Shown: in pieces, positions 31,869-39,245 of the stretch
Layout: every line of letters begins with the position of its first letter
Numbering within the stretch: position 1 is the first letter of the stretch
Origin: Hydrogenimonas cancrithermarum
GTDB taxonomy: Bacteria > Campylobacterota > Campylobacteria > Campylobacterales > Hydrogenimonadaceae
Direction: 5' to 3'
DNA: 64,000 nucleotides
Assembly: GCF_030296055.1 (NCBI RefSeq)
Contig: NZ_AP027370.1
Span: 310,001 to 374,000 of the forward strand
Notes under the pieces: model-generated
Database searches by the model: none
Told to the model about the DNA's origin: nothing
Seen by the model: the letters and a program-made list of their open reading frames with translations, nothing else
Translations under genes and position numbers: made by a program

Positions 31869-33359
31869 ATGCCAAAAACAGCACGCTACGATACACTTTC
31901 AAACCTTCTCATTCTGCTTTTTCTTTTGACGGCCTACCGAATCTTCATGCTGACACAGGCCGCGTCGAGTATCGATCTTTACGCCGATGAAGCCTACTAT
32001 TGGGGGTGGGCGCAGCATTTCGACTTCGGGTACTACTCCAAACCGCCGATGGTGGCATGGCTCATCATGCTCGCCACCTCCATCTGCGGTGACGGCTTCG
32101 TCTGTATCAAGATCGCATCGCCCATCGTCTACATCTTTACCACGCTAAACATCTACTTCCTCGCCAAAGAGCTTTTCGACGAGAAAGTGGCTTTTTACAG
32201 TGCCGTCGCTTTCATCACGCTGCCAGCGGTCTGGCTCTCGTCTCTCATCATCTCAACCGACGTGCCGTTTCTCTTCTTCTGGTCGTTGGGTATGCTCTTT
32301 TTCGTCAAAGCCCTCAAGAGCGACAGCTGGCGCGACTGGCTCGTCACCGCCTTGGCGGGAGGCGGAGGACTGCTCAGCAAATATACGATGATCATCTTCG
32401 TCGTTTCGGCCTTCGCATACCTCGTCACCTCGAAAACCCACCGGCACCATCTGAAAAATCCTAAACTTTATGTGACGATGGGATTGGCGGCACTCATCTA
32501 TCTACCCAACCTCTACTGGAACTATACCCACGAGTTCGTCAGTTTCAAACATACCGAAGACAATGCCCACCTCGAAGGAGAACTTTTCCATCCCGGGCGG
32601 ATGTTCGAGTTTCTCGGCGCACAGTTCGGCGTTTTCGGCCCCATACTTTTTGGGTGGCTCCTTGCCCTTCTGCCGCGCTACAAAACGCTGAAACAGAACG
32701 AAAGCTATACGCTGCTATGGTGGTTCGTCCTCCCGTTTTTCGCCCTGATTCTCACGATAAGCCTCCTTTCGCGTGCCCATGCCAACTGGTCGGCGCCGAT
32801 GTATGTCGCTTCGACGCTCCTCGTCGTTTCGTGGCTGGTACTGCATGGCCGAAAGCGCTGGCTCGCCGCCGCTATCGGCATCAACGTGCTGTTGGGCGTG
32901 GTTTTTTACCACTACCACGACATCACCGAAACGCTGCAGATCGAACTGACACGAAAAACCGACCCTTACAAGCGGGTACGGGGCTGGAAAGAGCTCGGCA
33001 GAGAAGTCGAAGCCATACTGAAAGAGCATCCGGAGGCGAAACTTCTCTCCGACGACCGCAAAACGATGGCGGAGCTCATCTACTATATCCATCCGCATCC
33101 GTTCGATGCCGTCAAATGGAACCCGAAACATACGCTTCTGGACCATTATGAACTTACAACGTCGCTTCAAAAACAGCTGGGGGAAGAGTTCGTCTATGTC
33201 ACGGACCGCGAAGAGATTTCAGACGTGAAAAAAGCGTTCGAAGAGGTCGAAAAGATCAAGACAATCGTGATTCCGCTCTATAAAGATTATAAAATGGTCT
33301 ATCATGTATACTATCTGAAACATTTCAAAGGCTACTCACCAGCCGGCACATCAAAGTAG
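31869..33359 (+). CDS. ArnT/PMT-like (GT39) membrane glycosyltransferase 1
   Basis: A 496-residue integral membrane glycosyltransferase of the PMT_2/ArnT clan with about eleven helices. The family catalytic loop lies after the first helix ([31 protein letters not shown]), with its acidic pair. The C-terminal 130 residues are soluble and probably periplasmic. Enzymes of this clan move a sugar from a polyprenyl phosphate donor to lipid A, protein or another glycan on the periplasmic side. It leads the cluster with ugd; a TTG/ATG alternative is not needed. Confidence 0.85.
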
Positions 33360-33373
33360 AGGGTATACAAACT

Positions 33374-34705
33374 ATGAAATTGAGTATGGTAGGAACGGGC
33401 TACGTAGGCCTCGTCACGGGCACCTGCTTCGCCGAGATGGGCAACAGCGTCATCTGCGTCGATATCGATGAAAACAAAATCGAAAACCTCAAAAACGGAA
33501 TCATCCCTATTTATGAACCGGGCCTCGAGGCGATGGTCAAAGAGAACCACGCCAAAGGCACACTCACGTTCACGACCGACATCAAAGAGGCGCTGGAGGC
33601 AACCGACGTCATATTCATCGCCGTCGGCACCCCGCAGGGCGAAGACGGCAGTGCCGATCTGCAGTATGTTTTGAAAGTGGCGGAAGAGATCGGAAAGCAT
33701 ATGACGCATGAGATGATCGTCGTCGACAAGTCGACCGTTCCCGTAGGAACCGCCGACAAGGTCAAAGAGACGATCCAAAAAGAGCTCGATAAACGAGGGG
33801 TCAACATCCCTTTTCATGTCATCAGCAACCCCGAGTTCCTGAAAGAGGGTTCGGCCATCGAAGATTTCATGAAACCGGACCGCGTCGTCATCGGGGCCGA
33901 GAGCGAGAAGGCGATGGAGGTGATGAAAGATCTCTACGCCCCCTTCACCCACAACCACGAACGTTTCATCGCGATGGATGTGCGCAGTGCCGAAATGACC
34001 AAATATACCGCCAACGCCATTCTCGCCACCAAGATCAGCTTCATGAACGAGATCGCCAACATCTGCGAGCGTGTGGGTGCGGACGTCAACAAGGTACGCA
34101 TCGGGATCGGAAGCGACAGCCGCATCGGCTACAGCTTCATCTACCCCGGCTGCGGCTACGGCGGAAGCTGCTTCCCCAAAGATGTGCAGGCACTCAACAA
34201 GATCGCACAGGATGCGGGTTACGAACCCCGCATCATCCAGGCGGTCGAAGCGGTCAACAAAGACCAGAAAAAGGTCCTGGCCGACAAGGTGGTCAAACGA
34301 TTCGGCGAAGACCTCACGGGCAAGAGATTCGCCATATGGGGGCTTAGTTTCAAACCCGAAACCGACGACATGCGCGAAGCGAGCTCCATCACGATCATCG
34401 ACGAACTGACGAAACGGGGGGCGAAGATACGCGCCTACGACCCCAAAGCGATGGAGGAGGCGAAGCGCCACTACCTCAAAGACAACCCGAATGTCGAATA
34501 CACCAAGAGCAAATACGACGCCCTCGACGGAGCCGACGCGATGCTGCTGGTGACGGAGTGGAAAGAGTTCAGAAGCCCCGATTTCGACGAGATGAAACAG
34601 CGTCTCGGGCAGCCGATCATCTTCGACGGGCGCAATCAGTACAATATGGAGAAGTTAAAGAAAAAAGGGTTCGAGTATCATCAGATCGGGGTGCCGGAAG
34701 TTTGA
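33374..34705 (+). CDS. ugd: UDP-glucose 6-dehydrogenase
   Basis: Ugd oxidises UDP-glucose to UDP-glucuronate with NAD. The 443-residue protein has the Rossmann start [23 protein letters not shown], the [11 protein letters not shown] block, the [14 protein letters not shown] motif, and the catalytic cysteine in [15 protein letters not shown]. The length is normal. Its product would supply a uronic-acid precursor for the neighbouring glycosyltransferases. The next gene starts inside its stop codon. Confidence 0.95.
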
Positions 34706-36279
34706 ACCGTATAACCGCCGCCGATTTCGACAGAAACCTGGAACGTTACGGACATTTCGCGCTCGCCATCGTTGTCTATCTCAGCTTTTTTTTCAATCTC
34801 GGAAGCGTTCCCCTTTTCGATCTCGACGAAGGGGCTTTCAGCGAAGCGACACGGGAGATGCTGGCTTCGGGCAACTACATCACCACATATCTCGGCGGTG
34901 AACTCCGTTTCGACAAGCCTATCCTGATCTACTGGTTGCAAGCAGCCAGTGTCAAGCTTTTTGGACTGAACGAATTTGCCCTCCGCCTGCCGTCAGCCCT
35001 TGCCGCTACGGCCTGGACCCTGCTGCTCTACGCCTTTTCCAAGCATCTTTACGGGCGAAAAACCGCACTTCTCAGTGCCGTTTTCATGGCTTCGGCACTC
35101 CAAATCAGCGTCATCGCCAAAGCGGCCATCGCCGATTCCCTTTTGAATCTTTGGATCGCGGGAAGTATGTTCGCCATTTTCCTCTACATCCAGAATCGCG
35201 AAAAAAAGTGGCTATACCTCACCTTTGCGGCGATCGCTCTGGGTGTTCTGACCAAAGGTCCGGTCGCGGTCATGGTTCCGTTCGTCGTCACGTTTCTCTA
35301 CTTCGCGATCAAGCGCGATCTGCTCTTTTGGGCCAAATCGGTTTTCAATCCGGTCGGTATCCTGATCTTTCTGCTGATCGCCGGGCCGTGGTACTGGCTG
35401 GAGTACCGGGAGCAGGGGATGAAATTTATCGAAGGTTTTTTCCTCAAACACAACCTGTCGCGTTTCGAAAACTCTTTCGAGGGGCACAGCGGCTCGCTTC
35501 TTTACTATATCCCGGTTCTTCTCGTCGGCACGATGCCCCATACCGGTATCCTGCTCGTCGCTTTTGCTCAAATCAAAACCTGGTTCAGGGATGAGCGCAT
35601 CCTCTTTCTGACGCTCTGGTTTGGCTTTGTCTTCATCTTTTTCTCCTTTTCCGGAACGAAGCTTCCGCACTATGTCATCTACGGCTATACACCGCTATTC
35701 ATCCTGATGGCGCTGGGGTTTGAAAAGGTTCGCTCGTCTCTTTGGATCGTCCTTCCGCTTGGAATTTTGATGACGGTTCTTCTCTTCTTGCCGGAGATTG
35801 CGCAGGCATTGTTGCCGACGATCAAAGATGAATTCGCCAAAGCTTTGATCCTCGAGGGAAAGGGGCTCTTCGGTTGGCGTTACAAGATGGAGATCGCCAT
35901 ACTTTTCATGGCGTTGCTGATCGTATGGAAGATGCGCTACGGAAACTTCACCAAGGCGGTTCTCACCTCCGCCATCTCGCTTCTTCTCGTGAACGGAACG
36001 ATTCTTCCCACCTATGCCGCACTTGCCCAGCAGCCTGTCAAAGAGGCAGCGCAATTTGCCAAAAAACATCATCTTGATGTCGTGATGTGGGGCATCAATA
36101 TGCCCAGTTTTATGGTATACTCCGAGAAAATCGTCCCCAGACGCGCCCCCAAAGCGGGTGAACTCGTATTGACGAAAGTAACGAAACTACAAGAGCTCGA
36201 GAGCTATCAGCCCATCTTTAAAAAGTACGGCATCGTCATCGTACGTGCCGGCAAACCAAAAAGAGATAAAGGAATTTGA
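34702..36279 (+). CDS. ArnT-like (GT39) membrane glycosyltransferase 2
   Basis: A 525-residue polytopic membrane protein closer to classical ArnT than the first copy: the loop [40 protein letters not shown] carries the DE and E/R pattern of the active site. About twelve helices and a soluble C-terminal domain follow. The start is TTG at 34702, overlapping the ugd stop (TTGA) with GGAAG upstream; the open frame extends back into ugd, but that part is a shadow. It probably transfers a sugar from undecaprenyl phosphate to an envelope acceptor. Confidence 0.88.
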
Positions 36280-37238
36280 TGAAACTTTCGGTTGTCATTC
36301 CCGTGATGAACGAAGAGGATAACATTGCACCGCTTTTCGATGCGGTCAGAAAAGCCCTCATAGGCATCGACTACGAGCTGATTATGGTCGACGACGGCTC
36401 CACGGACCGCACGGTCGAACGGATGAAAGAGCTGGCCGACGAACGCACCAAAATCATCGTCTTCAACCGCAATTTCGGCCAGACAACGGCAATGGCAGCG
36501 GGCATCGAAGAGGCGCAGGGCGACCTCATCGCCACACTCGACGGCGATCTGCAGAATGACCCGGCCGATATACCTATGATGATCGCCAAACTTGAAACAG
36601 GAGGCTGGGATCTGGTCGCCGGACGCCGTGCCAAGCGTAAAGACGGTATGTTTCTACGCAAGATCCCCAGCAAGATCGCCAACGCCATCATCCGAAAAAC
36701 AACCGGCGTCTACCTGCACGATTATGGTTGCACGCTCAAAGTCTTCAAACGCGATGTCGCAAAAAACCTCGGCCTCTATGGAGAGCTGCACCGTTTTATC
36801 CCGGTACTGGCCAAGATGTACGGTGCAAAGATCACCGAAGTCGATGTCCGCCACCATCCACGCATTCACGGGGAGAGCAAATACGGTATCGGCCGCACTT
36901 TCCGCGTCATCAGCGATCTGCTGCTGATGCTTTTCATGCAGAAGTACCGCACAAAACCGATGCATCTGTTCGGCACACTCGGTGTGCCGATGCTCAGCAT
37001 CGGTCTTTTGATTGACGCCTATATGTTTGTTCTCAAACTTTTTGGCGAAAGCATCGGCCAGCGTCCTCTGCTGACACTCGGTGTTTTGCTCACACTCGGC
37101 GGTATCCAGCTCATCACGACCGGTTTTGTCGCGGAGCTGATCATGCGAACCTATTTCGAGTCGCAGAACAAAAAACCCTACACGATCAAAGAGATCTACG
37201 TCGGCAAAGCGAACACCGAGGACACCTCCTCTTCTTGA
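36279..37238 (+). CDS. Polyprenyl-phosphate glycosyltransferase (GT2, DPM1/ArnC/GtrB type)
   Basis: A 319-residue protein with a cytoplasmic GT-A domain (VVIPVMNEEDNIAPLFDAV, MVDDGSTDRTVERMKE, the DXD region ATLDGDLQNDPADIPMMI) and two C-terminal membrane helices. It should load a sugar from a nucleotide donor onto undecaprenyl phosphate for use by the two ArnT-like enzymes. The ATG at 36279 overlaps the stop of the previous gene and has AAAGGA upstream. The last residues (NTEDTSSS) are encoded by the hairpin-rich end of the gene. Confidence 0.92.
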   Translation: MKLSVVIPVMNEEDNIAPLFDAVRKALIGIDYELIMVDDGSTDRTVERMKELADERTKIIVFNRNFGQTTAMAAGIEEAQGDLIATLDGDLQNDPADIPMMIAKLETGGWDLVAGRRAKRKDGMFLRKIPSKIANAIIRKTTGVYLHDYGCTLKVFKRDVAKNLGLYGELHRFIPVLAKMYGAKITEVDVRHHPRIHGESKYGIGRTFRVISDLLLMLFMQKYRTKPMHLFGTLGVPMLSIGLLIDAYMFVLKLFGESIGQRPLLTLGVLLTLGGIQLITTGFVAELIMRTYFESQNKKPYTIKEIYVGKANTEDTSSS

Positions 37239-37307: not shown

Positions 37308-38177
37308 ATGAAAAAGTTCAAACTTCTTCTCAAAATTTCTCTGACCATCGCGGCACTCTGGTTCGTGCTGCGAAAGGTCGATATCGGCCAACTCAAATTT
37401 TCACTGCAAAGTGCCGACGCTTTCTGGCTCTTCGCGGCCTTCATCCTCTTCAACCTCTCCAAAATCGCCAGTGCTTTCCGGCTCAATATCTACTTCGAAG
37501 CGGCCGGCCTGAAACTGTCACAGGGCTACAACCTCATCCTCTACTACGTCGGGATGTTCTACAACCTCTTTCTGCCGGGCGGTATCGGCGGTGACGGCTA
37601 CAAAATCTACCTGCTTAACCGTCACTACAAACATGGGGTCAAACCACTTTTCCAGGCGGTCCTGCTCGACAGGCTGAGCGGCCTCGCGGCATTGGCGTTC
37701 TACGCCTCTCTGCTCTTCGCTTTCAGTGACTATGCGAATCTTCTGGGTTCATGGACGGCATGGATATCGCTCGGTCTGGCCGTTACCGTTTTTCCCATCG
37801 CTTATATCGCGACAAAATGGCTCTTTGGCATTTTTTTGAAGGTTTTCAACACCACGATGCTCTGGGGGCTGGGTGTCCAGCTGCTGCAGCTTCTATGCGC
37901 CTGGGCCATTGTAAAGAGCCTCGCGATCGACCATGCCATGCTGGAGTATTTGACGCTCTTCCTCGTTTCGAGCGTCGTCGCCGTCCTGCCGCTCACCATC
38001 GGCGGGGTAGGGGTACGGGAGCTCACATTTCTCTATGGCCTCGGATATATCGGTGAAGAACCGAGCCTCGGCGTCACCTTCTCCTTTCTCTTTTTCATGA
38101 TAACGGCACTCTCATCGTTGATGGGTCTCTTTCTGCTCAATCGGGTGACACAAACTCCAAACAAAGAGGTCCCGTAA
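37308..38177 (+). CDS. Flippase-like membrane protein (UPF0104/AglD-MprF N-domain family)
   Basis: A 289-residue protein with about eight membrane helices. The motifs YYVGMFYNLFLPGGIGGDGYKIYLLNRHY and the LPLTIGGVGVRELTFLYGLGYIGEEPSLG stretch mark the lysylphosphatidylglycerol synthetase transmembrane/UPF0104 family, thought to move lipid-linked substrates across the membrane. In this cluster it could flip the polyprenyl-phosphate sugar made by the GT2 enzyme. Substrate assignment is inference from neighbours. Confidence 0.85.
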   Translation: MKKFKLLLKISLTIAALWFVLRKVDIGQLKFSLQSADAFWLFAAFILFNLSKIASAFRLNIYFEAAGLKLSQGYNLILYYVGMFYNLFLPGGIGGDGYKIYLLNRHYKHGVKPLFQAVLLDRLSGLAALAFYASLLFAFSDYANLLGSWTAWISLGLAVTVFPIAYIATKWLFGIFLKVFNTTMLWGLGVQLLQLLCAWAIVKSLAIDHAMLEYLTLFLVSSVVAVLPLTIGGVGVRELTFLYGLGYIGEEPSLGVTFSFLFFMITALSSLMGLFLLNRVTQTPNKEVP

Positions 38178-38180
38178 ACT

Positions 38181-39245
38181 ATGCACGCACTACAGTTCAT
38201 CGCCCTGGACGAAGCCGCTTTACAAGCCATCGAAATGGCGAATCTGAGCAAGCACACGAAAGTTGTCGCACCGACACCCGAACGTACCATGAAAACAGCC
38301 GACACCGGCCGGCTTCCCGTCTTCGTCGTCTCCTCGCTGGACGATCGGATGGAAAAAGCCATCCGCTCTTTTCAGGGCCGAGGCCTCCTGCTCTTTCCCG
38401 AACCGGAGCGCACGGGACCGATGACGGAAAACGTTTTGAAAAGCGGCCTCGTTCCGATACCGGTGAAACTGGAGTCGCTGGCGACACTCTCCTTTTCTCA
38501 CGCCGTCAAAAGTGTCGAAACGCTCTTCCTGGAAGCGACGCCAGAAGATTTTATGCTGGGAGCCGAAGATCATTTCGACGTTCTAAAACCCCATACCTTC
38601 AATCGATTCTATCATGCAGAAGGCAGACATCTACGCGAAGCGGTCCTGCGCATGGCACACAGAGCGAGAACGCTTCGCCGGATCGAGGGTATCGCCTACA
38701 CGCTCCAACTGCCGGCCGATACGCCGCTCTTTGCACTCGACGAGGCGCTCGACGTACTGGAGATTGCCGTACCCCCCGAAACACCCCTGCTGTTCGCCAT
38801 ACGGTTCGATAAGGATACCGCGTCTCACGTCAAGATCAGCGCCTGTATCGGTAGTCAGACACACATGACATCCGACATCCAGACACGAATCGATGCGCAG
38901 CCGACTTATCTTGGCAAAACCGCCGTCGTCGTGGAGAGTTTTGCCGCCAACGAAATCGATGAAAAACTTCTCGAAGCTCTCTGCCGCGACAACGGCATCG
39001 AGCCGGAAGATGCCGACAGGCTTTACGACATCCTCTACCTTCGCACCGACGAGACAGCCTCTTTGATGCGGCATCTTCGCGAGAGCCGAAACACCGAAGA
39101 GCGCATCGACGCCATCGCCAAAGCACTGACCGACGGATTTATCGACGTAAAGATTCTGGAGGAACTGGCCATACTCTACCGGCTTCCGCCCGATGAGATC
39201 ATCGCACGGGCCAATGGGTTGAAACCCGCCGGAAGCCCATCGTAA
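38181..39245 (+). CDS. Unrecognised protein; proposed degenerate FtsZ/tubulin-fold protein without GTPase motifs
   Basis: A 354-residue soluble protein, last in the glycan cluster, four bases after the flippase-like gene. I do not recognise a named family. Residues 131-225 follow the FtsZ pattern closely: HFDVLKPHTF stands where FtsZ has DFADV-T-M, then AEGRHLREAVLRM where FtsZ has GE-RA-EAA. RRIEGIAYTLQLP matches the strand giving GVLVNITG. DEALDVLEIAVPPETPLLFAIRF matches NEAA-II-EAVDP-ANIIFG. HVKISACIG matches VRVTVIATG. The N-terminal 130 residues are shorter than the FtsZ GTPase domain and lack the GGGTGTG loop. An extra helical tail (about 250-354) follows. The fold call is my inference and unproven. 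Confidence 0.5.
   Translation: MHALQFIALDEAALQAIEMANLSKHTKVVAPTPERTMKTADTGRLPVFVVSSLDDRMEKAIRSFQGRGLLLFPEPERTGPMTENVLKSGLVPIPVKLESLATLSFSHAVKSVETLFLEATPEDFMLGAEDHFDVLKPHTFNRFYHAEGRHLREAVLRMAHRARTLRRIEGIAYTLQLPADTPLFALDEALDVLEIAVPPETPLLFAIRFDKDTASHVKISACIGSQTHMTSDIQTRIDAQPTYLGKTAVVVESFAANEIDEKLLEALCRDNGIEPEDADRLYDILYLRTDETASLMRHLRESRNTEERIDAIAKALTDGFIDVKILEELAILYRLPPDEIIARANGLKPAGSPS

Follow-up and report, generated by a model that had tools for sequence, protein, structure and literature searches.

Divergent members of the FtsZ superfamily that carry added C-terminal regions were described as FtsZl1 and FtsZl2 (Makarova and Koonin 2010, PMC2875224). FtsZl1 has an FtsZ-like GTP-binding N-terminal domain and a coiled coil, with no recognisable FtsZ C-terminal domain, and its S6-T7 region does not fit (PMC2875224). 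In plants, the chloroplast division inhibitor ARC3 binds to FtsZ and inhibits assembly of the ring; its C-terminal domain controls the interaction (PMC5855766). The C-terminal face of FtsZ itself, around helix H10, is the polymerisation (plus-end) face of the molecule and a common target of MinC, SulA and MciZ (PMC11938149).

The protein dealt with here, termed pseudo-FtsZ, is encoded in the 2.38 Mb genome of Hydrogenimonas cancrithermarum, within a 64-kb stretch of DNA that was analysed as a whole (the window; G000:C1:310001-374000). It is the mirror case of FtsZl1, as it keeps the FtsZ C-terminal domain and has lost the GTP site. With FtsZ (TIGR00065; PF00091 plus PF12327), especially that of the Campylobacterales, it has in common the T7/H8 segment and the complete C-terminal globular domain, about 118 residues in register. 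It differs in the absence of the T1 and T4 GTP loops, an N-terminal domain about 90 residues shorter, the loss (in Hydrogenimonas) of the T7 catalytic residues, the missing conserved C-terminal FtsZ peptide and the addition of a helical tail. By analogy, ARC3 can be regarded as the nearest working precedent, since it is related to FtsZ, has an added region at its C-terminus and exists beside functional FtsZs. The likeness is one of architecture and would extend to regulation by analogy; ARC3 is a plant protein with MORN repeats, of which Pfam scans revealed none in the pseudo-FtsZ family. In the literature searched, which most subscription journals lay outside, no report turned up of a conserved FtsZ paralog from bacteria that has the C-terminal polymerisation half but lacks the GTPase site, nor any account of such a family or of FtsZ paralogs in Hydrogenimonas or the Campylobacterota.

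The locus, its distribution and its neighbours

The features of the locus are collected in Table 1. The pseudo-FtsZ gene starts 3 bp downstream of the stop codon of a flippase-like LPG_synthase_TM gene, and the two are likely co-transcribed. The second of the two PMT-family genes in the table probably has its true start about 150 bases further in.

Table 1. Genes of the locus and segments of the pseudo-FtsZ protein, with positions in the window.
Feature	Position	Strand	Basis
PMT-family membrane glycosyltransferase	31869..33359	+	Pfam PF13231 E=2.6e-35
UDP-sugar dehydrogenase-like protein	33374..34705	+	named from translated sequence, without domain scan
PMT-family membrane glycosyltransferase	34558..36279	+	Pfam PF13231 E=6e-21
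GT2 glycosyltransferase	36276..37238	+	Pfam PF00535 E=6.5e-34
Flippase-like LPG_synthase_TM protein	37308..38177	+	Pfam PF03706 E=3.4e-32
Pseudo-FtsZ gene, 354 aa	38181..39245	+	ORF; orthologs in 9/18 Hydrogenimonas genomes; purifying selection
Residues 1-100, reduced alpha/beta N-terminal domain (suggested)	38181..38480	+	AlphaFold2/DSSP; sequence (no T1/T4 glycine loops); hhalign negative for FtsZ GTPase domain
Residues 101-118, long helix at FtsZ helix H7 position	38481..38534	+	DSSP; hhalign match starts at 109
Residues 119-139, FtsZ T7 loop/H8 equivalent	38535..38597	+	hhalign alignment, residue reading, A7 search
Residues 140-226, FtsZ C-terminal domain	38598..38858	+	hhalign, DSSP, profile searches
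Residues 227-354, all-helical tail	38859..39242	+	DSSP; tail profile searches

The count of Hydrogenimonas orthologs includes the window's own, and the eight others are 47-65% identical to it. A second host group, one other family of the same order, was reached by an ortholog-profile search; its members, from genera g4 and g55 (L013, L014, L021, L022 and L023), are 23-28% identical. No further relatives appeared at strict thresholds in samples of about 400 genomes each from the class, the order and the phylum, and tblastn found none in phages. Since only Hydrogenimonas and one other family were found in these samples, the pseudo-FtsZ family is narrow and patchy. Scans with Pfam, NCBIfam, PHROGs and PADLOC assigned the window protein to no significant family, and none of their families covers the pseudo-FtsZ family. 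Pairs of orthologs have a dN of 0.2-0.36 and a dS above 1 (against L004, dN 0.29 and dS 1.56, giving a dN/dS well below 1), which argues that pseudo-FtsZ is kept by selection and is no pseudogene in decay; the lowest dN falls on residues 118-226, the FtsZ-like core. A canonical ftsZ coexists with the pseudo-FtsZ gene in genomes of both families, in agreement with the preliminary description of this DNA, which had suggested a dead paralog that could cap or regulate FtsZ.

That description had also tied the protein to the membrane glycosyltransferases of an envelope-glycan operon, and here the outcome was divided. The flippase-like gene does lie directly upstream in every Hydrogenimonas locus with enough upstream sequence. 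In the second family, however, the neighbours are other genes, encoding a TlpA-like thioredoxin (two genomes), a response regulator (one) and a glycogen synthase (one), and in four genomes of Hydrogenimonas the GT2 and flippase-like genes are retained with no pseudo-FtsZ gene behind them. No constant partner gene was found across both families. Given these other neighbours and the four operons without the gene, the glycan link is weak and local, and perhaps amounts to shared transcription only.

The FtsZ-like core

The claim that the protein follows FtsZ segment by segment was borne out for residues about 109-226, a stretch that begins as H7 ends and closes with the last strand. When the family was compared with 30 Campylobacterales FtsZ sequences by hhalign, the profile-profile search that had been proposed as a check, family columns 109-224 were paired with FtsZ 194-317 (Prob 94.5, E 7.9e-8, score 64.1); all 200 column shuffles stayed at or below 27.4 and the reversed profile reached 22.2. 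A core-only profile built from family members alone, with no canonical FtsZ included (A7; residues about 97-228), had canonical FtsZ as its best non-family match in the majority of the 120 genomes searched in the order, with alignments that usually span positions 9-126 of 132 in a register running from H7 to the last strand (E=1.2e-8 for the host's own FtsZ, E=5.0e-11 for the best FtsZ). For genomes that another search also listed, the two sets of coordinates agree. When whole genomes were searched with the profile of the entire family (A2), it picked up a second protein in nine of ten g55 genomes at 2e-8 to 1e-6. These proteins proved to be canonical FtsZ, sharing 66-76% identity with the host's FtsZ, and GGGTGTG was present in those whose sequence was read; in another genome A2 reached 2.5e-10, also with FtsZ. 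One member, L023, matches NCBIfam TIGR00065 ftsZ by itself (E=0.0023, residues 130-243 to 211-334) and PF12327 FtsZ_C at E=0.02.

These profile matches to canonical FtsZ, the hhalign result against shuffles and the NCBIfam match of L023 together lead us to read residues 119-226, on sequence grounds, as a true FtsZ T7-to-C-terminal-domain segment. The g55 members are the sequences that bridge the Hydrogenimonas proteins to FtsZ; a Hydrogenimonas-only profile found the same register (169-219 to 266-317) with a score of 27.9, which is shuffle level. The window protein gave no match to NCBIfam ftsZ at the cut-off of 295.2 bits, the best family member scoring 17.3 bits, and phmmer with one distant member found no match in the PDB. 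Against PDB sequences, A7 placed FtsZ near the top (E 0.046), the first match (E 0.0089) being a short one of Ras type.

Two AlphaFold models, with mean pLDDT of 70 and 75, were obtained from a seq alignment of seven sequences. After the helix at 101-118, DSSP assigns a strand at 140-147, a helix at 151-163, a strand at 169-178, a helix at 183-196 and strands at 203-209 and 216-223, so that the predicted order over 140-223 is that of the FtsZ C-terminal domain (strand-helix-strand-H10 helix-strand-strand). Pseudo-FtsZ thus retains the C-terminal domain in full, the T7/H8 segment before it and the last part of H7. Foldseek, run with both models, returned no significant E-value; FtsZ had the top TM-score, 0.40, among the 50 PDB matches listed per model, and a phage tubulin had 0.43 among the matches listed from a viral fold library, likewise with an insignificant E-value. 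The fold matches, from the structure prediction and fold search that had been suggested, are therefore taken only as support for homology.

The helix equivalent to H10 carries E188 and E194 without exception in the 13 family members. Of the 30 FtsZ sequences, 17 have E at the position corresponding to the first and 9 at that corresponding to the second. The T7 loop had to be placed anew. It had been equated, as DFADV, with HFDV, which in fact aligns with the next helix; the T7 equivalent is at about 123-130, where the window protein has DFMLGAED and FtsZ has DINLDFAD. The NxDxxD motif is missing from the window protein, the catalytic Asn and Asp being replaced by Met and Gly; in one distant genus the Asn is likewise gone but the middle Asp remains (EIDIDHKD, EIAADHED).

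The N-terminal part and the helical tail

The N-terminus is as short as had been stated: T7 is preceded by about 118 residues, compared with about 212 in the FtsZ of the host (G000:C1:428435-429589). None of the 13 family members has the Gly-rich T1 and T4 (GGGTGTG) loops, both of which that FtsZ carries. With their length, the first 100 or so residues are too short for a GTPase domain. Profile homology and the absence of the motifs together uphold the description of a diverged FtsZ paralog without GTP-binding motifs, and from FtsZ biochemistry we infer that a protein without the GTP loops cannot be a self-sufficient GTPase filament former.

The models, at moderate confidence, predict a small alpha/beta domain with strands at 3-8, 44-49, 69-73 and 91-95, and the N-terminal 100 or so residues are suggested to be a shrunken FtsZ GTPase domain. 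Since no sequence homology was found for this part, that reading is drawn from the predicted fold order, the top FtsZ/tubulin TM-scores of 0.40-0.43 and the example of a separate mini-FtsZ of 243 aa. A different small alpha/beta domain, fused to the FtsZ C-terminal half, is a doubtful alternative. It would account for an hhalign signal to the FtsZ GTPase domain that is at shuffle level (10.5 against a shuffle mean of 11.9) and for PDB profile matches confined to designed proteins and weak L7Ae-type ones, but the predicted order (strand-helix-strand ... strand-helix-strand-helix-strand, then the H7-like helix) matches that of a shortened FtsZ domain, the best listed TM-scores in both fold libraries come from full-length FtsZ/tubulin alignments, and the 243-aa paralog has undergone a similar shortening. 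This alternative concerns the N-terminal part only and is compatible with a role in regulating FtsZ.

The mini-FtsZ (G535, L135:1753-2484, minus strand) adjoins Mla-like ABC transporter genes and resembles pseudo-FtsZ in that its GTP loops are deleted while T7 (LKVDFNDFKHLM) and the C-terminal domain are intact. Unlike pseudo-FtsZ, it is plainly FtsZ (TIGR00065 E=1.5e-16), with its T7 residues kept and no helical tail. The pseudo-FtsZ family profile does not recognise it, and it is therefore probably a separate reduction. Other unusual FtsZ paralogs were also encountered. In G030 (L134:1421-1996, plus strand), a protein of 191 aa resembles the FtsZ N-terminal GTPase domain only (GIGGGGCKM, TGGGVTGGT; TIGR00065 E=1.3e-25) and lacks a C-terminal domain. 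G026 (L133:1941-3476, plus strand) has a second paralog of FtsZ, with what looks like a membrane segment at its N-terminus, that is split by a frame change or stop; it is flanked by the genes of an AAA ATPase and a DUF262-like protein, a setting that may be mobile or defence-related. In G029, an intact ftsZ is directly followed by a truncated tandem duplicate (L123:1282-1932, plus strand), which shows that duplication gives rise to fragments of this kind.

The helical tail, put at about 100 residues in the preliminary description, is present and somewhat longer, at about 125 residues that are all helical by DSSP of the model. Across the family, Q234, K246, N271, D277, Y282, Y286, E327 and L335 are invariant, and conservation of the tail is nearly equal to that of the core. 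Tail searches (A5) returned no significant relatives outside the family, the matches to Vps16 and designed proteins being insignificant, and the tail thus appears, from its sequence, to be unique to pseudo-FtsZ. Behind it, the distant g55 members L022 and L023 have an extra C-terminal region of about 90 residues that is absent in Hydrogenimonas. A faint MinC_N (PF05209) match at the start of the tail (window 38865-39005, residues 229-275, E 0.07) is probably due to chance; it was rejected, at 13.7 bits against a cut-off of 27.3, as it occurs in three of 13 members (best E 0.011) and is not shared.

Possible roles of pseudo-FtsZ

Because a normal ftsZ is present in the same genome, pseudo-FtsZ probably works by binding a component of the division machinery and not by making filaments of its own. 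By analogy with ARC3, its most likely role would be that of a non-catalytic regulator of the FtsZ ring that acts through its FtsZ-like polymerisation face, a reading to which we assign a probability of roughly one half. The face, made up of the T7-side loop, H10 and the following strands, would bind an FtsZ subunit at its exposed nucleotide face, capping or sequestering that subunit without completing a GTPase site; alternatively, pseudo-FtsZ could compete for the binding partners of the FtsZ C-terminal face. The tail would serve as a localisation or control part. Homology to FtsZ, loss of the GTP site, coexistence with ftsZ, the strongest selection on the core, the invariant E188 and E194, the use of this face by polymerisation and by MinC, SulA and MciZ, and the ARC3 precedent speak for such a regulator; the loss of the T7 catalytic residues in the window protein and the dispensability of the gene, which half of the Hydrogenimonas genomes lack, speak against it. 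More tentatively, with the odds somewhat against it, this would be the first bacterial family of GTP-dead FtsZ paralogs to serve as a dedicated filament cap or sequestering subunit, with the novel tail regulating it and coupling division to envelope or other signals, as an independently evolved counterpart of plant ARC3.

The surface of the protein is strongly diverged, so that it may no longer bind FtsZ, and the near-core conservation of the tail means that the main function might reside there. The main rival to an FtsZ-ring regulator is that the FtsZ C-terminal domain was exapted as an interaction module of an envelope or regulatory complex unrelated to FtsZ and division, which in Hydrogenimonas would be that of the glycan operon. 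This is unlikely in our view. The strong divergence of the core from FtsZ and, in Hydrogenimonas, the close linkage to the flippase gene fit it, as do the varied neighbours elsewhere and the dispensability of the gene, evident from the half of the Hydrogenimonas genomes that do without it; yet the core has the lowest dN and holds the FtsZ register throughout, and the two families share no constant partner gene.

An improbable alternative is that pseudo-FtsZ mimics the FtsZ C-terminal face as a decoy that titrates inhibitors, either cellular ones of the MinC type or those of phages. That face is the hotspot of FtsZ inhibitors (PMC11938149) and the gene is patchy within a single genus, but the defence library gave no match, the neighbourhood is not defence-like, and the presence of MinC_C shows no correlation with the gene (weak evidence, the MinC matches being partial). 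It is scarcely credible that the protein is unrelated and resembles FtsZ by chance or convergence. Taken by itself, the window protein matches no Pfam family significantly and the Foldseek E-values are insignificant, as would then be expected; against this, whole-genome profile searches reach FtsZ at E 5e-11 over the full core in the same register and shuffles fail to reproduce the match, which refutes the reading for residues about 109-226.

Should binding of pseudo-FtsZ to FtsZ prove true, regulators of the ARC3 type would have arisen in bacteria too, and the family would provide a probe of the FtsZ polymer interface that is natural and genetically encoded. Should it prove false, pseudo-FtsZ still shows that the FtsZ C-terminal domain is reusable without nucleotide binding.
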